Assembly (NCBI RefSeq): GCF_028768465.1
Contig: NZ_CP118225.1
Coordinates: 434,001-498,000 of the forward strand
Source of the DNA: Rhodopirellula sp. P2
Lineage (GTDB): Bacteria > Planctomycetota > Planctomycetia > Pirellulales > Pirellulaceae
Direction: 5' to 3'
DNA: 64,000 nt
Shown one piece after another: positions 54,101 through 63,768 of this stretch. Position 1 is the first letter of the stretch. Every line of letters begins with the position of its first letter. A program made the translations under genes and the position numbers. The notes below the pieces were generated by a model. It made no database searches and was not told the DNA's origin. It saw only the letters and a list, made by a program, of their open reading frames with translations.

Positions 54101-55985
54101 GGTGGGGGTGATCGATCGCAACGGATTGCTGCTGGAAGTGGATGACCGATCGTTGGAGCATGCAAAAGTCAGCCGCCAGGACGTGATTGGCAAACCCTTC
54201 CACGAGGCTCCTTGGTGGAGCTACGACGCAAACGTCGTTGAGCAGATTCGCGAGGCGATGAAACGGGCCTTCCAGGGTGAACCGGTGCGCTACGACGTGT
54301 CCTTGTTTGCCCACGGTGACGATGGCGTGATGATCGACTTCATGATTGCGCCTGTTTTCGATGACCATGGAAACATCGAATACCTGATTCCATCGGGCGT
54401 CGACATTCGTGATCGCAAAAAAGCGGAACAGGCCATGAAGAACGCTTCCCGGCGAATGCAAATGGCACTTCGGGCGGGAGGCATGGCCGCCTGGGAATGG
54501 ACGCCAACCAAAAGCTACTGGACAAAAGAGCTGTACGAACTGCTGGGGCTTTCAGCAGACCAGCACGCCAGCCCCGAACTTTGCTTCTCGCTCACTCACC
54601 CTGATGATGTGGAGGCGTTGAAGCAGCACTGGCAAGGTGCGATTGAGGGCAAACACGATTGCGAGTTTGAGTTCCGCATCCAACGTCCCGATGGCGAGCT
54701 GCGTTGGATCACCAGCGTGGGCGAAATCGTGCGTTCGAAATCAGGCAAGGTCACGCGCATGCATGGCGTCAATTGGGATTCGACCCAAGAACACGTGCAA
54801 GCCGAAACGCTGCGAGAAAGCGAGCGACGCGCCAATGAAGCCAGTGCCTCCAAGAGCGCTTTCCTGGCGAACATGTCGCATGAAATCCGTACCCCGATGA
54901 CCGCCATCCTTGGCTACGCCGATTTGTTGCACGATGTGGTGGAGGACAGCGAAGCTCGCCAGCACCTGCAAACGATCCGGCGAAATGGCGACTACTTGCT
55001 GGACATCATCAATGACATCTTGGACCTTTCCAAAATCGAAGCTGGCAAACTCGACGTCGAAAGTGAACGCTTTGATCCAGGCCGATTGATCGAAGATGTT
55101 CGCAGCATCATGGAAGTCCGAGCCCAGGAAGCCGGGCTCGAATTGACCGTCGAATACGGCGAGCCAATCCCCGCTTTGATTCAATCTGATTCCAAACGCC
55201 TCAAACAAGTCCTGATCAATTTGGTTGGCAACGCGATCAAATTCACCCACACAGGAAGCGTGCGATTGGTGGTGCGGATGAATTCCGATCCCGATCGATT
55301 GTGCATCGACGTGATCGACACGGGAATTGGAATCGCCAAGGAACAACAAGACCATTTGTTCCAGCCTTTCTCGCAAGGCGACTCCAGCGTCAGTCGGACG
55401 TTCGGTGGAACCGGCCTTGGATTGACGATCAGCCAGAGATTGGCGGAAATGCTTGGCGGTAGCATCACGTTCGAGAGCGACATGGGAGTCGGCAGCACGT
55501 TCTCGCTGATCGTTTCCCCTGGCGAGTTAACCGGTGTCCCCATGGTGGACCACTCGGAACCCATTGCCTATCAAGACAATGTTCCTGAAGCCCCCGACGG
55601 GCATCCCATCGAATTGAATTGTTACGCGTTGGTGGTCGATGACCGCCGCGACATTCGGTTTTTGAGCCGGCGTATCCTGACCAAAGCAGGTGCCACAGTC
55701 GACGAATGCGAGGACGGCCTGCAAGCCGTCCATAAAATCGTCGAGTGCATGCACGAGGAGCATTGCCCGGATGTCATCATTCTGGACATGCAAATGCCGA
55801 CGCTGGACGGGTACGCCACCGCGAAAAAGCTCCGAGAACTTGGCTACGAAGGACCGATCATCGCCCTGACGGCTGACGCAATGCAGGGCGACATGAACCT
55901 GTGCCTGCAAGCGGGCTGCAACGACTACCTCAGTAAACCCATTGATGCTGCCAAACTGATTCAGCTGGTCAGCAAATTGACATGA
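51150..55985 (+). CDS. CheB-CheR-PAS hybrid histidine kinase with receiver domain
   Basis: A 1611-residue fusion starting at TTG 51150; no upstream in-frame ATG exists before a stop at 51054. Residues 10-185 are a CheB methylesterase domain (VVGVGAGAGGMEAL, H45 in VFVAHDPSEL, D137 in ILSGMGTDGTLGL), but the catalytic Ser is Gly18. Residues about 200-480 are CheR (FFRDPESFAKLA, VPGCATGEEAYTLA at 314, CRNLLIYLGPHLQKK). A coiled coil (about 650-740) leads to several PAS domains, then H1244 (ANMSHEIRTPMTAIL), an ATPase domain (GTGLGLTISQ) and a receiver with D1546 (IILDMQMP). It overlaps the next kinase by 4 bases. Confidence 0.93.
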   Translation: MSDPPLEFKPLVVGVGAGAGGMEALRELLTSLGDSPNLAVVFVAHDPSELQSPQADQLASATPLQIVELKSRKLLKPNTVYLCPPNSLLTISSGSRLLLKPTTQESSATPIDHFFHSIADTQGEQGIGVILSGMGTDGTLGLKSISDAGGMTFAQTSGSSKFDSMPRNAATTGVADHVLSPEKIADELQDYVRYLKQQSDELTSGSMLEQIEQSIPEVAEILYQTTKHNFKHYKTGTLTRRILRRMQILQIPNVAAYLNRMRDDQEESQNLFRELLIGVTAFFRDPESFAKLAAEVIPRIFEGRTASDPVRIWVPGCATGEEAYTLAILCHEYLDQLQTRQGDLPSQESLPTFQIIASDIDERALAIARQGVYPLGISENVSEDRLKQFFVQRGKRYHAKRKLRESILFSLHNLISDAPFSRQDLISCRNLLIYLGPHLQKKLIPLFHYALRPNGYLFLGPSESISSHGELFRGVSSNHRINQRKGTETVTAAEDSRGFLSAIEVAQPAAILPCEVDTQEIHQVLQRIILDEFAPKAVVVDMDGQVVCSLSDTSPYLSSDDGSLSNNLIKMARIGLRIGLRSAFAEAKASRRRVVRDNLSVSCEDGQQPVKLTIQPMMQLGHETELFMVAFENLGPPVSPLEGPTDGSTNSNPLKVADQEAQRLIEELKRELAATREDLNQSMQAMEATNEELKLSNDELLVMNQGLQTANEKLEISKQEIRSSSDAVARANADLQNLLRSTRIATIFLDDDLSIRSFTPAATEIYGLIATDVGRPLTQIVSNVKAMPPLPSWEQLIQEDGVEHTIIAQSGQAFIRRALPYRSHTGDHDGIVLTFTDVTQLRESEELFQSLVRASAQIVWIANAKGVVESDSTSWREYTGQTREEWSGLGWLDAIHPADRELTEKVWIDAVKKGRPLVLEYRLRNRNGDYRWFQVRTAPQHRPDGAVHRWVGMNIDIHDQKQSRLELADREAHLRRVINNQLGLVGVIDRNGLLLEVDDRSLEHAKVSRQDVIGKPFHEAPWWSYDANVVEQIREAMKRAFQGEPVRYDVSLFAHGDDGVMIDFMIAPVFDDHGNIEYLIPSGVDIRDRKKAEQAMKNASRRMQMALRAGGMAAWEWTPTKSYWTKELYELLGLSADQHASPELCFSLTHPDDVEALKQHWQGAIEGKHDCEFEFRIQRPDGELRWITSVGEIVRSKSGKVTRMHGVNWDSTQEHVQAETLRESERRANEASASKSAFLANMSHEIRTPMTAILGYADLLHDVVEDSEARQHLQTIRRNGDYLLDIINDILDLSKIEAGKLDVESERFDPGRLIEDVRSIMEVRAQEAGLELTVEYGEPIPALIQSDSKRLKQVLINLVGNAIKFTHTGSVRLVVRMNSDPDRLCIDVIDTGIGIAKEQQDHLFQPFSQGDSSVSRTFGGTGLGLTISQRLAEMLGGSITFESDMGVGSTFSLIVSPGELTGVPMVDHSEPIAYQDNVPEAPDGHPIELNCYALVVDDRRDIRFLSRRILTKAGATVDECEDGLQAVHKIVECMHEEHCPDVIILDMQMPTLDGYATAKKLRELGYEGPIIALTADAMQGDMNLCLQAGCNDYLSKPIDAAKLIQLVSKLT

Positions 55986-58726
55986 GCGAACTCACCACCA
56001 CCGAACAGCAACTGCGTCTGGCATTGTCGATGTCCTCAATGGGTGTCATCCACATGGACTACGACACCCAACTCGCCTCGGCTGATCCGCAAGCCGCACG
56101 ACTGTTTGACTTGCCTCCTGGTGTGCAGGTCGACCGGGAGACGGTTCATTCGAAGTTCCACCCCGATGATGCCGTCGCGATCAACCAGCATCTGGCCGAG
56201 TCGATGGATCCCAACGGTGTGGGGGAATTCTCGATGGAACATCGCATCATCCATGACAACGGGGATGTGCGTTGGCTGAGCATTCGAAAAAAGGTCCTTT
56301 TTGAAGAGCGTGACGGTCGACGGACACCGGTTTCATCACTTCTGGCTGCCGTCGACATCACTCATAAAAAGAACGCGGAAGACTTCCTCAAACGATCTCA
56401 AGAGACGTTTGAGAACCTGGTGCAAAACAGCCCCTTTGGCATCTACGTCGTCGATGCCGACTTGAAGATGCGGTACGTCAGCAAAGGCGCGCGGGAGGTC
56501 TTCACACAATTCGATCCCATCGAAGGGCAAGATCTCGAAACGATCATGTTCACGATTTGGCGAAAGGAGTTTGCCACCGAGATCATGAGGCTCTTTCAAC
56601 ACACGCTGGAAACCGGTGAACCGTATCAAGCCCCGGCGTTTGTTGAAAATCGTCACGACACCGCCCAAGTCGAATCCTATGAGTGGCAAATCGAACGCAC
56701 GACGCTGCCCGATGGTCGCTTCGGAGTGGTTTGCTATTTCTACGACGCCACCGAACACGAGCAAGTCGCGGAATCGATCCGACGCCGCGAACAATATTTT
56801 CGCGAAATGACGGATGCGGCCCCGGCGATGCTGTGGGTCACCGGCGCCGACCATTCCTGCACGTTTCTCTCGCGAGGCTGGCAAGACTACACCGGGCAAT
56901 CTCAATTCGACGGCCTGGGGCTTGGCTGGCTGGACATGGTTCACCCGGATGACCGAGAGGACTCGCACCGGATCATTCGCTCCGCTTTCGAACGCCGCGC
57001 CCCTTTCGAACATGACTTCCGACTACGGACCGGCAACGGCGACTATCGATGGGCCATCGATGCCGGGCGTCCTAAGTTCAATTCCAAAGGACAGTTTGAA
57101 GGCTACATCGGAAGTGTGATCGATGTTCACGATCGCCAAGTGGCCGAAGCATCCCTGCGGCAGCGGGCCGCCGACATCGAGGCCAGTGAAAGCCGTCTGC
57201 GTTTGGCCGCGGAGACGACCGGTTTTGGCACCTACGACATCACCACAACCGACTCGCAGAACATTTGGTCCGATGAATTGTTTCGGATCCTCGGATTGCC
57301 CGCGGACGGGGCCGCGGACGAAAACCGCTATGCCTCGTTGGTGCATCCCGATGATCATCAACGATTCCAGCAAACACTGCGTCATTCGATGTCGCCAGAC
57401 GGCCCCGACCAGCACTCCATCGAGTTTCGAATCATTCGTCCTGATGGAGAAACGCGCTGGCTCATCGACACGGGATGCACCTTTCGCGAGGACATCGAAC
57501 GGACTCGTCGCGTCGTTCGGCGAGTGGGCACGGTGCAAGACATCACGGACCGCAAAATCTTTGAGCAATCACTGCAACGCGCCAAGCAGTCTGCAGAGAT
57601 GGCCAATCGATCTCGAGGCGAATTCCTAGCCAACATGTCGCATGAAATCCGAACGCCCATGTCGGCGATCCTGGGACATGCCGACATTCTGAACGACCAC
57701 CTGAAAGACCCCGACAACTTGTTGGTGGTGGAAACCATTCGTCGCAATGGGAATTTCCTGCTGGCGATCATCAATGACATCTTGGACTTGTCCAAGATTG
57801 ATGCGGGCAAGATGAATCTGCAGAAACAACCGGTCCGCCCCGACACGATCGTCGGTGACATTCGTTCGCTGATGGATGTTCGTGCAGCGGAAAAAGACCT
57901 GCCGCTGAAGGTCGAGTTCGCTGGCCCGATTCCAGAAACCATTCACACCGACGCGGTCCGGTTGCGTCAAATCCTTTTGAATCTGGTCGGCAACGCGATC
58001 AAATTCACCAACGACGGTGAAGTGCGACTGAACATCCGCTACGACCAACGATCCAAGTTGCTGAACTTTGACGTGATTGACACCGGGGTGGGCATTCCGT
58101 CGGAGAAACTGGATTCGCTGTTTGAACCGTTCACGCAAGTTGACAACACCTCCACACGTTCGCACGGTGGCACCGGATTGGGACTGACGATCTGTCGTCG
58201 ATTGTCCCAGGCCTTGGGAGGACAAATCGATGTCTCCAGCCAACCTGGCAAAGGCAGTCGATTCACGCTCTGCCTGAAGGTTGACGCCAGTGGCAAATTG
58301 ATCCAGCCCAACCTGAACAGCCTGCCAGCGCAAGCGACGCCAGCCCCCGAGATCCGGTTGTCGGCCAACGTGCTGGTCGTCGATGATCGGCGCGACATTC
58401 GATACTTGGCCCAGCACTTCATTGAGAAAGCGGGCAGCACTGTCTACACCGCCACCAACGGGCAGGAAGCCATTGAGTTCATCGAGTCTCCCGATTCACC
58501 AACGGTGGATTTGATTGTCATGGACATGCAGATGCCGGTCATGGACGGCTACGAAGCCACCACGGAACTCCGGCGGCGAGATTGCAAGCTGCCGATCATC
58601 GCCCTGACCGCCAATGCCATGAAGAGCGACCGCGAAGAGTGCTTGGCTGCGGGATGCACCGACTACACCACCAAACCGCTCGATCAACAGAAGTTGATCC
58701 AAATGATCGCCCGCCTGACCGTTTGA
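55982..58726 (+). CDS. PAS hybrid histidine kinase with receiver domain
   Basis: A 914-residue soluble kinase that begins at ATGA overlapping the previous stop. Four PAS domains are visible (SMGVIHMDYDTQLASADPQA, NSPFGIYVVDADLKMRYVSK, AAPAMLWVTGADHSCTFLSR, TTGFGTYDITTTDSQNIWSD). The H-box has H554 (ANMSHEIRTPMSAIL), the ATPase domain ends GTGLGLTICRRLSQALGG, and the C-terminal receiver has D848 (LIVMDMQMP). Both receivers in this pair share the unusual VVDDRRDIR start, so they probably arose by duplication. No HPt protein is encoded near. Output is likely phosphotransfer to an unlinked regulator. Confidence 0.93.
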   Translation: MSELTTTEQQLRLALSMSSMGVIHMDYDTQLASADPQAARLFDLPPGVQVDRETVHSKFHPDDAVAINQHLAESMDPNGVGEFSMEHRIIHDNGDVRWLSIRKKVLFEERDGRRTPVSSLLAAVDITHKKNAEDFLKRSQETFENLVQNSPFGIYVVDADLKMRYVSKGAREVFTQFDPIEGQDLETIMFTIWRKEFATEIMRLFQHTLETGEPYQAPAFVENRHDTAQVESYEWQIERTTLPDGRFGVVCYFYDATEHEQVAESIRRREQYFREMTDAAPAMLWVTGADHSCTFLSRGWQDYTGQSQFDGLGLGWLDMVHPDDREDSHRIIRSAFERRAPFEHDFRLRTGNGDYRWAIDAGRPKFNSKGQFEGYIGSVIDVHDRQVAEASLRQRAADIEASESRLRLAAETTGFGTYDITTTDSQNIWSDELFRILGLPADGAADENRYASLVHPDDHQRFQQTLRHSMSPDGPDQHSIEFRIIRPDGETRWLIDTGCTFREDIERTRRVVRRVGTVQDITDRKIFEQSLQRAKQSAEMANRSRGEFLANMSHEIRTPMSAILGHADILNDHLKDPDNLLVVETIRRNGNFLLAIINDILDLSKIDAGKMNLQKQPVRPDTIVGDIRSLMDVRAAEKDLPLKVEFAGPIPETIHTDAVRLRQILLNLVGNAIKFTNDGEVRLNIRYDQRSKLLNFDVIDTGVGIPSEKLDSLFEPFTQVDNTSTRSHGGTGLGLTICRRLSQALGGQIDVSSQPGKGSRFTLCLKVDASGKLIQPNLNSLPAQATPAPEIRLSANVLVVDDRRDIRYLAQHFIEKAGSTVYTATNGQEAIEFIESPDSPTVDLIVMDMQMPVMDGYEATTELRRRDCKLPIIALTANAMKSDREECLAAGCTDYTTKPLDQQKLIQMIARLTV

Positions 58727-58745: not shown

Positions 58746-58892
58746 ACGCTGGATCGCCCCAACCGACAATCTCCGAAAATTCTTCCTGAACCATCAAACT
58801 TGAGCATGGACACGGGTCGATAAGCGTGAGGAACGTCCTGCTTGCATGGAGCGATACTTCAAGTGCGAATCGACACTCGCCAATCCGGTGTG

Positions 58893-59702
58893 ATGACACT
58901 GGAGGATCACCGCCGAGCTGCCAACGAAAACGTGCAAAGCGTCTTCAGCGAAGTGCTGGAGAACTTTGGACGCGAGGGATATGCCAGTGCTGAACCGGTC
59001 TCCACTGAAATGCCGCTGGATTCTCAGATCCAACAATCGTGGACCCAGTGGTATCGAGTCGAGCAACTCGGGCGTTATCGTGGCCAAGAGGACGCCGCAG
59101 CCCTGGGTGAATCCTACGCTGGCGTGATGTCCCAGGCTTACGACGAAGGCGGCTATGCCACGCCCAAAGACTTTCTGCGTGGATTGCCGGCTGCCGAACT
59201 GGAAACGGTCCAGACCATCCACCGCTTGGCAGACCCGATCCAGGTCGATTCGCTGAGCGAGGAAGGGGCTCTGAATCTGTTGGTCCCACCCGCCGCGCAG
59301 GTGGATCTGAACCGCGACGGGATCACGCAATCAGGCAAAGCCAACGGCCTTCGGTTCCCTGACAGCACGACGTCGCCCGAAGTGACGCAGGCGTGGGAGG
59401 AAGCAACCGCGGGCATGTCATGGGGCGAACGTGCGATTCACGAGTTGCGAATGAAGCTTCCCGTGTTGACCGCGAATTTCATCGTCAACGGCGACGGCCA
59501 GATCACGGGCCAGCGTGAACCAGGTGATCCGGATTGGGTCAATCCAATGGCGGACCCGGAATACTCCTTCGTCGAGGAGACCAAGCGCTGGGTCGACTAC
59601 TTGGATGACTTCAAAAACCAGATCGATCCAGACCAGTACGCCAAAGATCGCAGCTTCTTTGAGACGTTTCAGCAGCAGTTGATCGAACACGGTGCCCCCT
59701 GA
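58893..59702 (+). CDS. Uncharacterised protein with Ca-loop-like motifs
   Basis: A 269-residue protein with no signal peptide. Two loops resemble EF-hand or dockerin calcium sites: VDLNRDGITQSG and IVNGDGQITGQREPGD. The rest is acidic and helical (NVQSVFSEVLENFGREGYAS, KRWVDYLDDFKNQIDPDQYA). I do not recognise the family. The ATG at 58893 is a guess: a TTG at 58842 is also in frame. It is downstream of the kinases and may be separate from them because of the hairpin at 58725. Confidence 0.6.
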   Translation: MTLEDHRRAANENVQSVFSEVLENFGREGYASAEPVSTEMPLDSQIQQSWTQWYRVEQLGRYRGQEDAAALGESYAGVMSQAYDEGGYATPKDFLRGLPAAELETVQTIHRLADPIQVDSLSEEGALNLLVPPAAQVDLNRDGITQSGKANGLRFPDSTTSPEVTQAWEEATAGMSWGERAIHELRMKLPVLTANFIVNGDGQITGQREPGDPDWVNPMADPEYSFVEETKRWVDYLDDFKNQIDPDQYAKDRSFFETFQQQLIEHGAP

Positions 59703-60439: not shown

Positions 60440-61891
60440 ATGCCGTTTCGATTCTACCGCTGCGATCCTTCGAAGCACCGCTTTTTAGCGTGTTTTGTTT
60501 GCTGCTTGGCGATTGCCTTCTCATCCACCAATCTTCACGCCCAAATGGGTGGTGGAGGCATGGGTGGAGGCCAAGCTCAAGCACCCGCCGCCGCAACCAA
60601 ACCAAAATTTCGTGATCACATCCACAACCGCGACGGCATGGCACTGCGTCGCGAAGTGGGCGACGCGGTCGTGGCCGAAGTCCGGTTGGTTGGCAACCAA
60701 GTCATCCAGACCACGGACATTCTGGCGGAACTTCAAACCCGCAAAGGTCGTTTTTACAGTGAAGAAACTGTTTTGGCTGACGTCGGTCGCTTGAACGACA
60801 TGGGCTCCTTTGACCACGTCACCTTCGATACCGAGGAACGTGTCACGGCAACTCCCGGTTCGAACGGCAGTGCAACTCAGAAAAGCGTGCTGGTCACGTT
60901 CTATGTTCGCGAACGAGCGATGGTTTCGCAGGTCATCTATCACGGCGACTACGGAATGAACGACCGTGAATTGTCGGGACGTTCAGGAATCACCGCAGGC
61001 GACCCGCTCAGCGAGTTCGCAATCGAAACCGGCAAACGTCGTTTGATCGACTACTACCACGAAGAGGGCTTCAACCAAGCCGCGATCATCGCTTCCATCG
61101 GACTGCCCGGTGATCCCAACGCGGTGGTCTTTCGAATCAACGAAGGGCCGAAAGAACGCATCCGAGACATTCGCATCGAAGGGGCTTCCATCGTCAGCGA
61201 ATCACGCTTGAAAAAGATCATTCAAAGCCGTGGCCCCATGATGGGCATCATGAGCTACATCGGCAACGTTGCGGACATGAAAAAGATCGACGCCGATGTC
61301 GATGTGTTGGCGTCCTACTATCACAACCTTGGATTCCTGACCGCGACCGTCGGACGTCGAATTGAATACCACGAAGACGGAAAGTGGATGACAATCGTGT
61401 TTGTTGTCAACGAAGGCCCACGTTTCAGCATCGGCGACATTCAAATTGTCGGCAACGAATTCATCACCGAAGAATCACTGCGACGACGCCTGGAACTGAA
61501 AGCCAATGATGTTTTCAGCGGCACCAAGATGCGAAAAGACATCGGTGAGATCGTCTATGGCTACGGTGAACTCGGATTCATCTACGCCGAGGTCAACCCC
61601 AAGACGATCATGCGAGATGAAAACGGCATCGTCGACTTGGTGTTCGAAATCACGGAAGGCGATCGCTGGAAGGTGAACAGCATCCGCGTCGAAATCGACG
61701 GGGAACCTCACCTGATGCGAGAAACCACGATGTTGAACCTGATCGAGATGCGAGAAGGTGATTACATCGATCGTCGTGACTTAGAAACCGGGCGTAACCG
61801 GATCGAACGCAGCCAACTGCTCGAAACCAATCCCACGATCGCCGCCCCGCCGGACATCATCGTGAAGCCATTGGAGGAATCGTTGAGATGA
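60440..61891 (+). CDS. POTRA-only BamA-like periplasmic protein
   Basis: A 483-residue protein with a signal peptide (FLACFVCCLAIAFSSTNLHA) and a Gly-rich linker. Five POTRA-like units follow: VVAEVRLVGNQVIQTTDILA, VSQVIYHGDYGMNDRELSGR, RIRDIRIEGASIVSESRLKK, SIGDIQIVGNEFITEESLRR and KVNSIRVEIDGEPHLMRETT, each with the beta-alpha-alpha-beta-beta pattern ending in a V-F-x-I/V-N-E-G strand. BamA normally has exactly five before its barrel; here the gene ends and the barrel is the next gene, starting at an ATGA overlap. It should bind unfolded outer-membrane proteins and accessory lipoproteins in the periplasm. GTG 60419 is an alternative start. Confidence 0.85.
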   Translation: MPFRFYRCDPSKHRFLACFVCCLAIAFSSTNLHAQMGGGGMGGGQAQAPAAATKPKFRDHIHNRDGMALRREVGDAVVAEVRLVGNQVIQTTDILAELQTRKGRFYSEETVLADVGRLNDMGSFDHVTFDTEERVTATPGSNGSATQKSVLVTFYVRERAMVSQVIYHGDYGMNDRELSGRSGITAGDPLSEFAIETGKRRLIDYYHEEGFNQAAIIASIGLPGDPNAVVFRINEGPKERIRDIRIEGASIVSESRLKKIIQSRGPMMGIMSYIGNVADMKKIDADVDVLASYYHNLGFLTATVGRRIEYHEDGKWMTIVFVVNEGPRFSIGDIQIVGNEFITEESLRRRLELKANDVFSGTKMRKDIGEIVYGYGELGFIYAEVNPKTIMRDENGIVDLVFEITEGDRWKVNSIRVEIDGEPHLMRETTMLNLIEMREGDYIDRRDLETGRNRIERSQLLETNPTIAAPPDIIVKPLEESLR

Positions 61892-63573
61892 ACTCCAAGA
61901 CCACACTGAATTCACTCCCGCTCAAGTCCCGCTTCAAGTCATGGATGCGTGCTGTGACCCAATCTTCTGAATCGGATCCTTCGGCCCCGTCGAAGCATCG
62001 CACAGCAACGCGTTGGCTCGATGACATCCACCGCTCGCTGTGGACTCGCGTCTCCGCGTCCGCGCTGCTGGCGTTGTCATCCAGCGTCGTTTCGTCATCG
62101 CAAAGCTCCGCTCAAACGGCTTACCCAGCTCCGCCACCACCATCGGCCTACGGTGCACCACCCTCGCTGCAGGGCACAGCGGCGGCCCCGACCAATTCGA
62201 CTTACGGTCAATCGGTCTATGGCGGCCCGTCCGCCTACGGCGCACCTGGAACGACGGCTCCCGCGACAACCGCACCTGCACCGACGGCAGGCAATCCCTA
62301 CGCCGCGCCGACTTATGGCGGAAACGTTGCAGCGCCTCCCGCGGCCTACCCCAACGGCGCGTATCAGGGACAAACTTATCAGGGACAAACCTACCAAGGT
62401 GACGTCTATCAAGGCGGAACGTTGCCCGGTCCTTTGCAGGGCAGCTTCCCATCGTCGCCCAGCTTGGCACCTCCGGTTGTCAATCAGCCCACCGTTCGGG
62501 AAGCCGACCTGATCATCCAAGGTTACCCCGCTCGCACGGGTCGACTGATGTTCGGCGGTGCGGTCAACAGTGACGCCGGTGTCACCGGCCAGATCACCGT
62601 GGATGAACGCAACTTTGACATCAGTCGCTGGCCGACTTCCTTTGGCGATCTGTTCAGCGGCACTGCCTTCCGTGGTGCTGGCCAAACGTTTCGACTGGAA
62701 GCAGCTCCCGGGAGTGATTACCAACGATACACCGCTCAGTTCGCGGACCCCAACCTGTTGGGTTACTTGCCCATCAGCATGTCGCTGAGTGGGTTCTTGT
62801 ACGATCGCAACTTTGACGACTGGGACGAAAACCGCCTCGGCGGCCGAGCCAGCTTTGGTTATCGCGTGACCCCTGACCTTTCGATTTCGCTTGGCGTCGG
62901 CGGACAAAATGTCGAGATCACGGACCCGCGAGTCAACACGGTGCCCGAACTGAATTCGGCCCTCGGCGACAACGCATTGTTCAGTGGCATGGCATCGCTG
63001 ATCCACGACACTCGCAACAGCCCGTTGCAACCCAGTCGCGGTCACTACTTTGAATTGAGTTTCGAACAAACCTTTGGCGACTACGAGTACTCCACCTTCG
63101 AAGCCGAGTACCGCAAGTACTGGTTGCTTCGCGAACGAGCTGATGGCTCGGGGAAACAAACCCTTTCCTACAGCGTGCAACTGGGCTTCAGCGGCGACGA
63201 AACACCGATCTTCGAAAACTACTTTGCCGGTGGTTACGCGACGATTCGCGGTTTCGATTTCCGTGGTGCCAGCCCGGTCATCAACGGCGTGGAAGTCGGG
63301 GGTCAGTTCCAATGGTTGAACTCAGTCGAATACATGTTCCCGTTGACCGCCGACGACGCCTTTCGCGGCGTTGCCTTTGTTGACTTCGGAACGGTCGAAC
63401 AAGACATCGAGATTGACACCGATAACTTCCGCGTCGCTCCTGGCTTTGGTCTGCGTGTCGCGATCCCCATGCTCGGTCCCGCCCCGCTGGCGTTCGACTT
63501 TGCATTCCCAGTTGCGATGGCCGACACGGACGACGAGCGAATGTTCAGTTTCTACATGAGTGCGATCCGCTGA
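61888..63573 (+). CDS. BamA-like beta-barrel protein without POTRA domains
   Basis: A 561-residue protein. After a long N terminus with a signal-like segment at about 55-76 (VSASALLALSSSVVSSSQSS) comes a Pro/Ala/Tyr/Gly-rich linker with tandem YQGQT repeats (nucleotides about 62360-62420), then a barrel typical of BamA/surface-antigen D15: LIHDTRNSPLQPSRGHYFEL, the lid motif GYATIRGFDF, LNSVEYMFPL and, at the end, APGFGLRVAIPMLGP with APLAFDFAFPVA. No POTRA domain is present. It starts inside the stop codon of the POTRA gene, so the two products are made together and probably form one insertion machine. Confidence 0.85.
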   Translation: MNSKTTLNSLPLKSRFKSWMRAVTQSSESDPSAPSKHRTATRWLDDIHRSLWTRVSASALLALSSSVVSSSQSSAQTAYPAPPPPSAYGAPPSLQGTAAAPTNSTYGQSVYGGPSAYGAPGTTAPATTAPAPTAGNPYAAPTYGGNVAAPPAAYPNGAYQGQTYQGQTYQGDVYQGGTLPGPLQGSFPSSPSLAPPVVNQPTVREADLIIQGYPARTGRLMFGGAVNSDAGVTGQITVDERNFDISRWPTSFGDLFSGTAFRGAGQTFRLEAAPGSDYQRYTAQFADPNLLGYLPISMSLSGFLYDRNFDDWDENRLGGRASFGYRVTPDLSISLGVGGQNVEITDPRVNTVPELNSALGDNALFSGMASLIHDTRNSPLQPSRGHYFELSFEQTFGDYEYSTFEAEYRKYWLLRERADGSGKQTLSYSVQLGFSGDETPIFENYFAGGYATIRGFDFRGASPVINGVEVGGQFQWLNSVEYMFPLTADDAFRGVAFVDFGTVEQDIEIDTDNFRVAPGFGLRVAIPMLGPAPLAFDFAFPVAMADTDDERMFSFYMSAIR

Positions 63574-63636: not shown

Positions 63637-63768
63637 AATGCCATCTACTTTGTAGCGGAACGGCGCGAGCCGTCCGGTGACGCGCCGGAAAACATCCACG
63701 TTTTACCGGACGGCTTGCGCCGTTCCGCTAACAAAATCCCCTCGGTTGGTTCTAACGTAGATGGCATT
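63637..63768. repeat. Long imperfect inverted repeat (REP-like element)
   Basis: Two nested pairs of arms are seen. Inner arms at 63653-63678 and 63705-63730 are 26 bases each with one mismatch (TAGCGGAACGGCGCGAGCCG against the complement of CGGCTTGCGCCGTTCCGCTA). Outer arms at 63637-63648 and 63757-63768 are 12 bases and perfect (AATGCCATCTAC / GTAGATGGCATT). It lies between two convergent genes and may act as a bidirectional terminator or be a mobile repeat. Confidence 0.8.

Follow-up and report, generated by a model that had tools for sequence, protein, structure and literature searches.

BamA is split into a POTRA protein and a barrel protein in Rhodopirellula sp. P2 and its family, the Pirellulaceae

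Described BamA-type proteins and the Rhodopirellula locus

BamA is usually regarded as one polypeptide chain at the core of outer-membrane assembly. Here we analyzed a stretch of 64,000 nucleotides from Rhodopirellula sp. P2 (Planctomycetota; Pirellulaceae; assembly GCF_028768465.1, contig NZ_CP118225.1, positions 434,001 to 498,000 of the forward strand), which we call the window and whose coordinates we count from its first letter. At 60440 to 63573 it carries two adjacent genes that together resemble bamA. Like BamA (TIGR03303), the pair comprises five POTRA units and an Omp85 barrel with an RGF motif, which we take to be the lid motif, and it accounts for the only Omp85 found in the genome. 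Unlike BamA, it consists of two polypeptides, each with a predicted export signal, that appear to be cut in the loop between strands β2 and β3 of POTRA5 and that have a long, probably disordered linker.

Other departures from the BamA arrangement have been described. Heinz and Lithgow 2014 (PMC4104836), in whose main text the string 'Planctomycet' does not occur, distinguish lipoprotein and no-N-terminus classes of Omp85 proteins. The barrel protein studied here resembles the Omp85 lipoproteins and TamL of Bacteroidota in its lipoprotein-like N-terminal signal, which is found in most relatives of the window pair and not in the window. In those proteins, however, the lipid precedes intact POTRAs on one chain (according to passages of PMC4104836), whereas here a single POTRA strand follows the signal and the POTRAs are separate. 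It likewise resembles the 'noNterm' Omp85 proteins in that no POTRA domain shares a chain with the barrel, but these have no N-terminal extension (same passages), while the present protein keeps a POTRA5 strand, a linker and a signal, and the adjacent gene encodes a POTRA partner. The fused long-linker BamA proteins of Lacipirellulaceae and Thermoguttaceae have the same domains, the same insert position in POTRA5 and the same RGQSP motifs. They differ in being single polypeptides, with no lipobox in the linkers tested (0/76) and with weaker hydrophobic stretches.

A split BamA appears to be unreported. Our searches of titles and abstracts, with subscription journals mostly not covered, found no published case, and passages of PMC8871954, of the 2026 review PMC13067283 and of the Tuwongella proteome paper PMC8567305 do not mention one. 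For each planctomycete, Rhodopirellula among them, Speth et al. 2012 (PMC3422733) give a single BamA accession, obtained by BLAST with E. coli BamA; the word POTRA is absent from the main text of that article.

The features of the locus, all on the + strand, are as follows.

60419, +: alternative GTG start of the POTRA gene, upstream of 60440
60440 to 61891, +: POTRA gene (BamA-N), encoding a signal peptide, POTRA1-4 and POTRA5 minus its last strand (PF07244, E 3e-53; TIGR03303 positions 2-372)
60440 to 60541, +: predicted signal peptide of the POTRA protein, a hydrophobic stretch with a putative LHA|Q cleavage site
60668 to 61660, +: POTRA1 (60668-60916), POTRA2 (60923-61147), POTRA3 (61157-61417) and POTRA4 (61427-61660), PF07244 matches of the genome search converted to window coordinates
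61661 to 61888, +: POTRA5 up to its penultimate strand, followed by the protein end, β3 absent (alignment to the linker-free relative L213; AlphaFold2 (AF2) model of the fused relative L250)
about 61847 to 61876, +: POTRA5 strand β2, PPDIIVKPLE, within the POTRA gene
61888 to 61891, +: ATGA, shared by the start codon of the barrel gene and the stop codon of the POTRA gene
61888 to 63573, +: barrel gene (BamA-C; PF01103, E 3e-50; TIGR03303 positions 396-738)
62038 to 62115, +: putative export signal of the barrel protein, without a lipobox Cys in this genus (hydrophobic maximum 1.83; limits and cleavage site predicted)
62116 to 62502, +: low-complexity P/G/Y/Q-rich linker, taken as a remnant of the POTRA5 loop insert
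62503 to 62532, +: putative POTRA5 strand β3, ADLIIQGYPA, on the barrel protein (sequence comparison; AF2 model of a fused relative)
62533 to 63570, +: Omp85 barrel (PF01103, TIGR03303), including TIRGF, presumably the lid motif

An earlier note on this DNA had proposed a POTRA-only gene followed by a barrel-only gene with an ATGA overlap, and the open reading frames agree: the two genes lie on the same strand in different frames and share the ATGA at 61888-61891. An ATG stands at the same offset in three loci of the same genus (L193-L195). The Pfam check that the note suggested assigned PF07244 to the first protein (483 amino acids) and the Omp85 profile PF01103 to the second (561 amino acids). 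Five PF07244 stretches were found in the POTRA protein at a lax E of 1 and four at E 0.001 in the genome search. The note's five POTRA-like units stand, with the correction that the fifth looks incomplete, its last strand apparently sitting on the barrel protein. That strand alone represents POTRA5 on the barrel chain, in which the Pfam search found no POTRA profile match. About 215 residues precede the barrel; they contain a hydrophobic, export-like segment (approximately residues 51-76) and then a P/G/Y/Q-rich stretch with YQGQT repeats, much as the note had described. The closest solved structures are BamA-type chains for the POTRA protein, and TamA and BamA chains for the barrel protein. 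Scored separately, the halves reach 194 and 148.7 bits against TIGR03303, both below the curated cut-off of 297.15, which was set for the whole chain. Surveys with full-length BamA models can therefore underrate or misread this family.

The genome is a single contig of 7,291,416 bp, 99.92% complete with 4.12% contamination. PF01103 matched it once, in the barrel gene of the window, and all four PF07244 matches at E 0.001 fall within the POTRA gene. Profile searches of the whole 7.29 Mb contig found no second POTRA or Omp85 gene, and thus no intact BamA elsewhere; such a gene, together with absence of the pair from relatives, is what the note had named as speaking against it. Because this is the sole Omp85 found in the genome, outer-membrane protein insertion is its probable function, and the pair would have the essential insertase activity of BamA.

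Distribution of the split

When 119 Pirellulaceae genomes were searched with TIGR03303, 116 matched and three gave no match. A first set of loci was drawn from the DNA of 102 matched genomes, two further family members and the window; L173, whose barrel runs off the contig edge, was left out. In each of these 104 family loci, two of which have a partial barrel, POTRA and barrel occupy separate adjacent frames of the same strand. A second set came from the other 13 matched genomes; seven of its loci had at least parts of both halves, and all seven were split. At L299, L303, L304 and L305 the POTRA gene is closed by a stop and the barrel is off the contig, and at L297 and L298 all that can be read is a barrel running into the contig edge; these six were not counted. 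The genomes G184 and G192 were searched by profile and lie outside the locus counts. In total, 111/111 readable family loci are split, with the halves adjacent on the same strand (some cut by contig ends) and none fused. The pair is therefore present in other planctomycete genomes, a point that the earlier note had left to be checked, and the conclusion that BamA is split in this lineage is supported.

Two sets of apparent exceptions were rejected. Twenty-five of the 119 family genomes scored above the cut-off as if fused, but the search had read through stops, and the DNA has at least one in-frame stop between the halves. Three fused loci from metagenome-assembled genomes (MAGs) are titled as family genera (L271 and L285 as 'Blastopirellula marina', L293 as 'Rhodopirellula sp.'). 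We took these titles as misassigned, because the tree described below places L271 and L293 among other fused rows away from the family; L285 lies outside the tree.

Beyond the family, fusion predominates. In the seven other families of the order from which genomes were fetched, BamA is a single protein with a long insert, and the distance from the POTRA to the barrel profile is 186-442 residues; this distance is 142 and 145 residues in class families f10 and f11, and 12-14 in f12 and f13. Among 16 fetched loci outside the family (L198-L213), 14 are fused; L198 and L207, discussed below, are the exceptions. Surveys of the class (138 genomes) and the phylum (147 genomes) placed most non-family barrels among the matches listed in frames of about 700-1400 amino acids; a few of those matches lie in short frames, of which L198 and L207 were examined. 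In a scan of named genomes, restricted to the best 80 of 475 relatives and not counting six without a readable POTRA, 70 of 74 loci with both halves were fused. The fused relatives include Aeoliella, Botrimarina, Bythopirellula, Adhaeretor and Thermoguttaceae, with Aeoliella and Adhaeretor listed as Lacipirellulaceae. The four split loci of the scan comprise L268, L277 and L292, which repeat the family genomes of L180, L147 and L130, and the frameshift L289.

Only L207 (family f6, one genome) looks like a true split outside the family. It has a lipoprotein-type signal and a barrel N-terminal part of 383 residues. L198 (genome G222, family f10) and L289, the latter in a MAG, were rejected as independent splits: neither has an export segment, and the sequence after the shift is arginine-rich nonsense. 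We take both to be BamA genes with an apparent frameshift in the linker.

These two loci do lend some color to an artefact, that is, to a frameshift, a pseudogene or a stop read through into one chain. In addition, 26 of the 105 split loci (the 104 family loci of the first set plus L207) have both halves in one frame, and in 21 of these a single stop lies between them. Against this, the halves are out of frame in 79/105 (offsets from -367 to +111 nt), every readable family genome is split, single-contig genomes included, and the second half carries its own export signal, which both frameshift cases lack. We consider an artefact very improbable, and the earlier note's statement that this is no simple frameshift holds up.

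POTRA5, strand β3 and the export signal

In linker-free relatives, the last strands of POTRA5 are β2, a short loop and β3, which runs into barrel strand β1. One such relative, L213, aligns through this β2-loop-β3 stretch to solved BamA chains. In a local alignment, the end of the window POTRA protein, except for its last three residues, aligns without gaps to the pre-loop strand of L213, and the start of the window barrel aligns to the post-loop strand. Alignment to E. coli BamA ends at POTRA residue 466 and would not settle the cut site alone. We had considered that the last POTRA5 strand might be duplicated on both halves; the L213 comparison and the AF2 modeling led us to abandon this idea.

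Two fused relatives were modeled with AF2. The model of L236, a POTRA4-POTRA5-linker-barrel chain (57 rows), matches BamA in overall fold. For L250, the barrel was cut off, leaving 332 residues. Here POTRA5 has block means above 90, the insert (about 151 to 310) is predicted to be disordered, and β3 (318-327) is modeled as a strand in blocks of 80 and 92. Because the barrel is absent from this model, β3 can pair only with POTRA sheets in it. The model matches E. coli POTRA4-5 (3q6b) with a TMt of 0.81, at rank 11 by E-value. Most of the core of β3 is also kept in the split barrel proteins: among 103 of them, 88% have a hydrophobic residue at position -9 and 86% at position -7, compared to 100% and 87% of 84 fused ones (counts that leave out the partial barrels L135 and L137, and in which the anchor slipped in a few rows). 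Together, the alignments and models give good support to the view that the cut falls in the β2-β3 loop of POTRA5 and not between the POTRAs and the barrel.

The barrel half also seems to have acquired its own export signal. The strongest 12-residue hydrophobic stretch preceding the barrel was scored in 110 split loci, where the median is 2.38, and in 78 fused linkers, where it is 1.03. The two ranges overlap: the lowest value of a true split is 1.52 and the highest of a fused linker 1.88. The 110 loci include the two frameshifts (1.23 and 1.30) and the three repeated genomes. A strict lipobox occurs in 69/105 split barrel N-termini, and more look lipobox-like by eye; the controls gave none in the 76 fused linkers, 3/78 in fused N-termini and 10/105 in POTRA N-termini. 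A looser lipobox pattern tried earlier was dropped, as it matched 21/105 POTRA N-termini. An acquired export signal, apparently lipoprotein-like in most relatives, is thus well supported by these sequence patterns.

Origin, proposed mechanism and surroundings

We built a tree of joined POTRA and barrel sequences (95 rows; quick method with the Shimodaira-Hasegawa-like approximate likelihood ratio test (SH-aLRT), no bootstrap, midpoint root). The 62 split rows, which comprise family loci, the window and the three named repeats, form one clade (SH-aLRT 99). L207 joins this clade with SH-aLRT 80, and the two together adjoin a fused group that holds the Lacipirellulaceae (union 92). The tree has three changes of state when L198 and L289 are both labelled split, and two without L198.

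The linkers share a recurrent motif. RGQ occurs in 70/70 fused linkers of the scan and RGQ[SN]P in 66/70, with at least two copies in 51; shuffled linkers gave a mean of 0.1 of 70 loci with the motif. Among the 105 split pairs, 52 have RGQ in the POTRA tail (shuffled mean 1.7), 55 have it in the N-terminal part of the barrel protein (shuffled mean 6.2), and 35 have it on both halves. The full RGQ[SN]P remains in 47 POTRA tails but only 15 barrel N-terminal parts. This distribution is consistent with a fused ancestor whose gene broke between two copies of the motif. A fission and a single main origin are well supported. As a separate observation, the otherwise disordered insert has a single strongly conserved element, RGQSP(D) (fused L214-L293, split L094-L197).

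We think it likely that the pair is a two-chain BamA that arose when a fused ancestor was split once, within its linker, and that is rejoined by β3, which completes POTRA5 in trans. The earlier steps of this proposal are well supported: a long disordered segment would have been inserted into the β2-β3 loop of POTRA5 in an ancestral single-chain BamA, the gene would have broken within this insert in the ancestor of the family (probably together with one sister genome), and the downstream half would have gained its own export signal, lipoprotein-like in most descendants. The later steps are more conjectural. After separate export, β3 at the start of the barrel protein may complete POTRA5 of the POTRA protein, so that the two proteins would form a complex. 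Only the loop would be cut, and the hinge between POTRA5 and the barrel, where β3 runs into barrel strand β1, would stay on one chain. The disordered linker, presumably lipid-anchored in most relatives, could hold or guide the barrel chain without straining the joint, and the complex would fold and insert outer-membrane proteins like ordinary BamA.

Several observations weigh against this proposal. Both AF2 models are of fused relatives rather than a split pair, and the partner of β3 was deduced from secondary structure without coordinates. The Foldseek match to 3q6b leaves open whether β3 is among the aligned residues. In the L236 model, which includes the barrel, there is a strand at β3, with block means of 51-79 for POTRA5 and 50-68 for β3. 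At position -11 of β3, most split proteins have Ala and only 27% have one of VILMF, against 94% of fused ones. RGQ is on neither half in 33/105 split pairs, the window included, and the window and three loci of its genus have a plain signal without a lipobox. The linker-free relative L212 is ambiguous, as a gapped global alignment puts the last POTRA strand of the window on β3. Lastly, a second strand-like stretch, which could compete with β3, follows RGQ in 17/105 POTRA tails, although not in that of the window.

The last two points would fit two chains in which POTRA5 is completed inside the POTRA protein, by the strand-like tail or by its own last strand, with the chains meeting elsewhere. 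This seems quite improbable to us. The window POTRA protein ends no more than about six residues after its last strand and lacks such a tail, and the L213 alignment makes that strand β2. In the AF2 model of fused L250, both this strand and the β3 on the barrel side are used, and the tail-like stretch that follows the first RGQSP stays unstructured.

Alternatively, the two functions could have separated, with the POTRA protein acting as a free periplasmic chaperone and the barrel as a POTRA-less insertase without a stable joint between them. Passages of PMC4104836 attest Omp85 proteins without an N-terminal extension and cite Sam50 as working without its POTRA, and the linker would permit free movement. 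We nonetheless regard this as unlikely. The halves are adjacent in all 111 readable family loci, and most of β3 is conserved on the barrel protein, where a free barrel would not need it. Pairwise distances of POTRA and barrel are also correlated, with r 0.80 among 61 split rows and 0.68 among 26 fused rows (permuted maxima 0.16 and 0.21), though shared descent alone would yield such a correlation too, which takes from its weight for trans docking as well.

Returning to the two-chain BamA joined by β3, a further version, which we put forward tentatively, is that it is obligate and assembled by strand complementation of POTRA5. The POTRA arm would then be detachable, and possibly regulated or exchangeable, and RGQSP and the lipid anchor might dock a planctomycete partner. 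A whole family apparently relying on a two-chain BamA would demonstrate that POTRA5 does not need a covalently continuous chain. The pair would offer a natural split protein for studying communication between POTRA5 and the barrel, and the probably lipid-anchored barrel a handle on how the insertase itself gets delivered.

Upstream of the pair, a PAS histidine kinase/response regulator gene occupies 55982-58726. Between it and the POTRA gene lies an open reading frame of 286 amino acids (58842-59702, TTG start), which had no Pfam match at E 0.01. Just 3' of the barrel gene, a near-perfect palindromic element spans 63652-63731, with a predicted RNA fold of -69 kcal/mol (z -10.7). When up to 2 mismatches are allowed, the genome contains 62 copies of its half-site pattern, against 1 for the reversed control, and the copies are often paired at a spacing of 48 bases. 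The element is a candidate dispersed repeat resembling repetitive extragenic palindromic (REP) sequences, or a candidate terminator.

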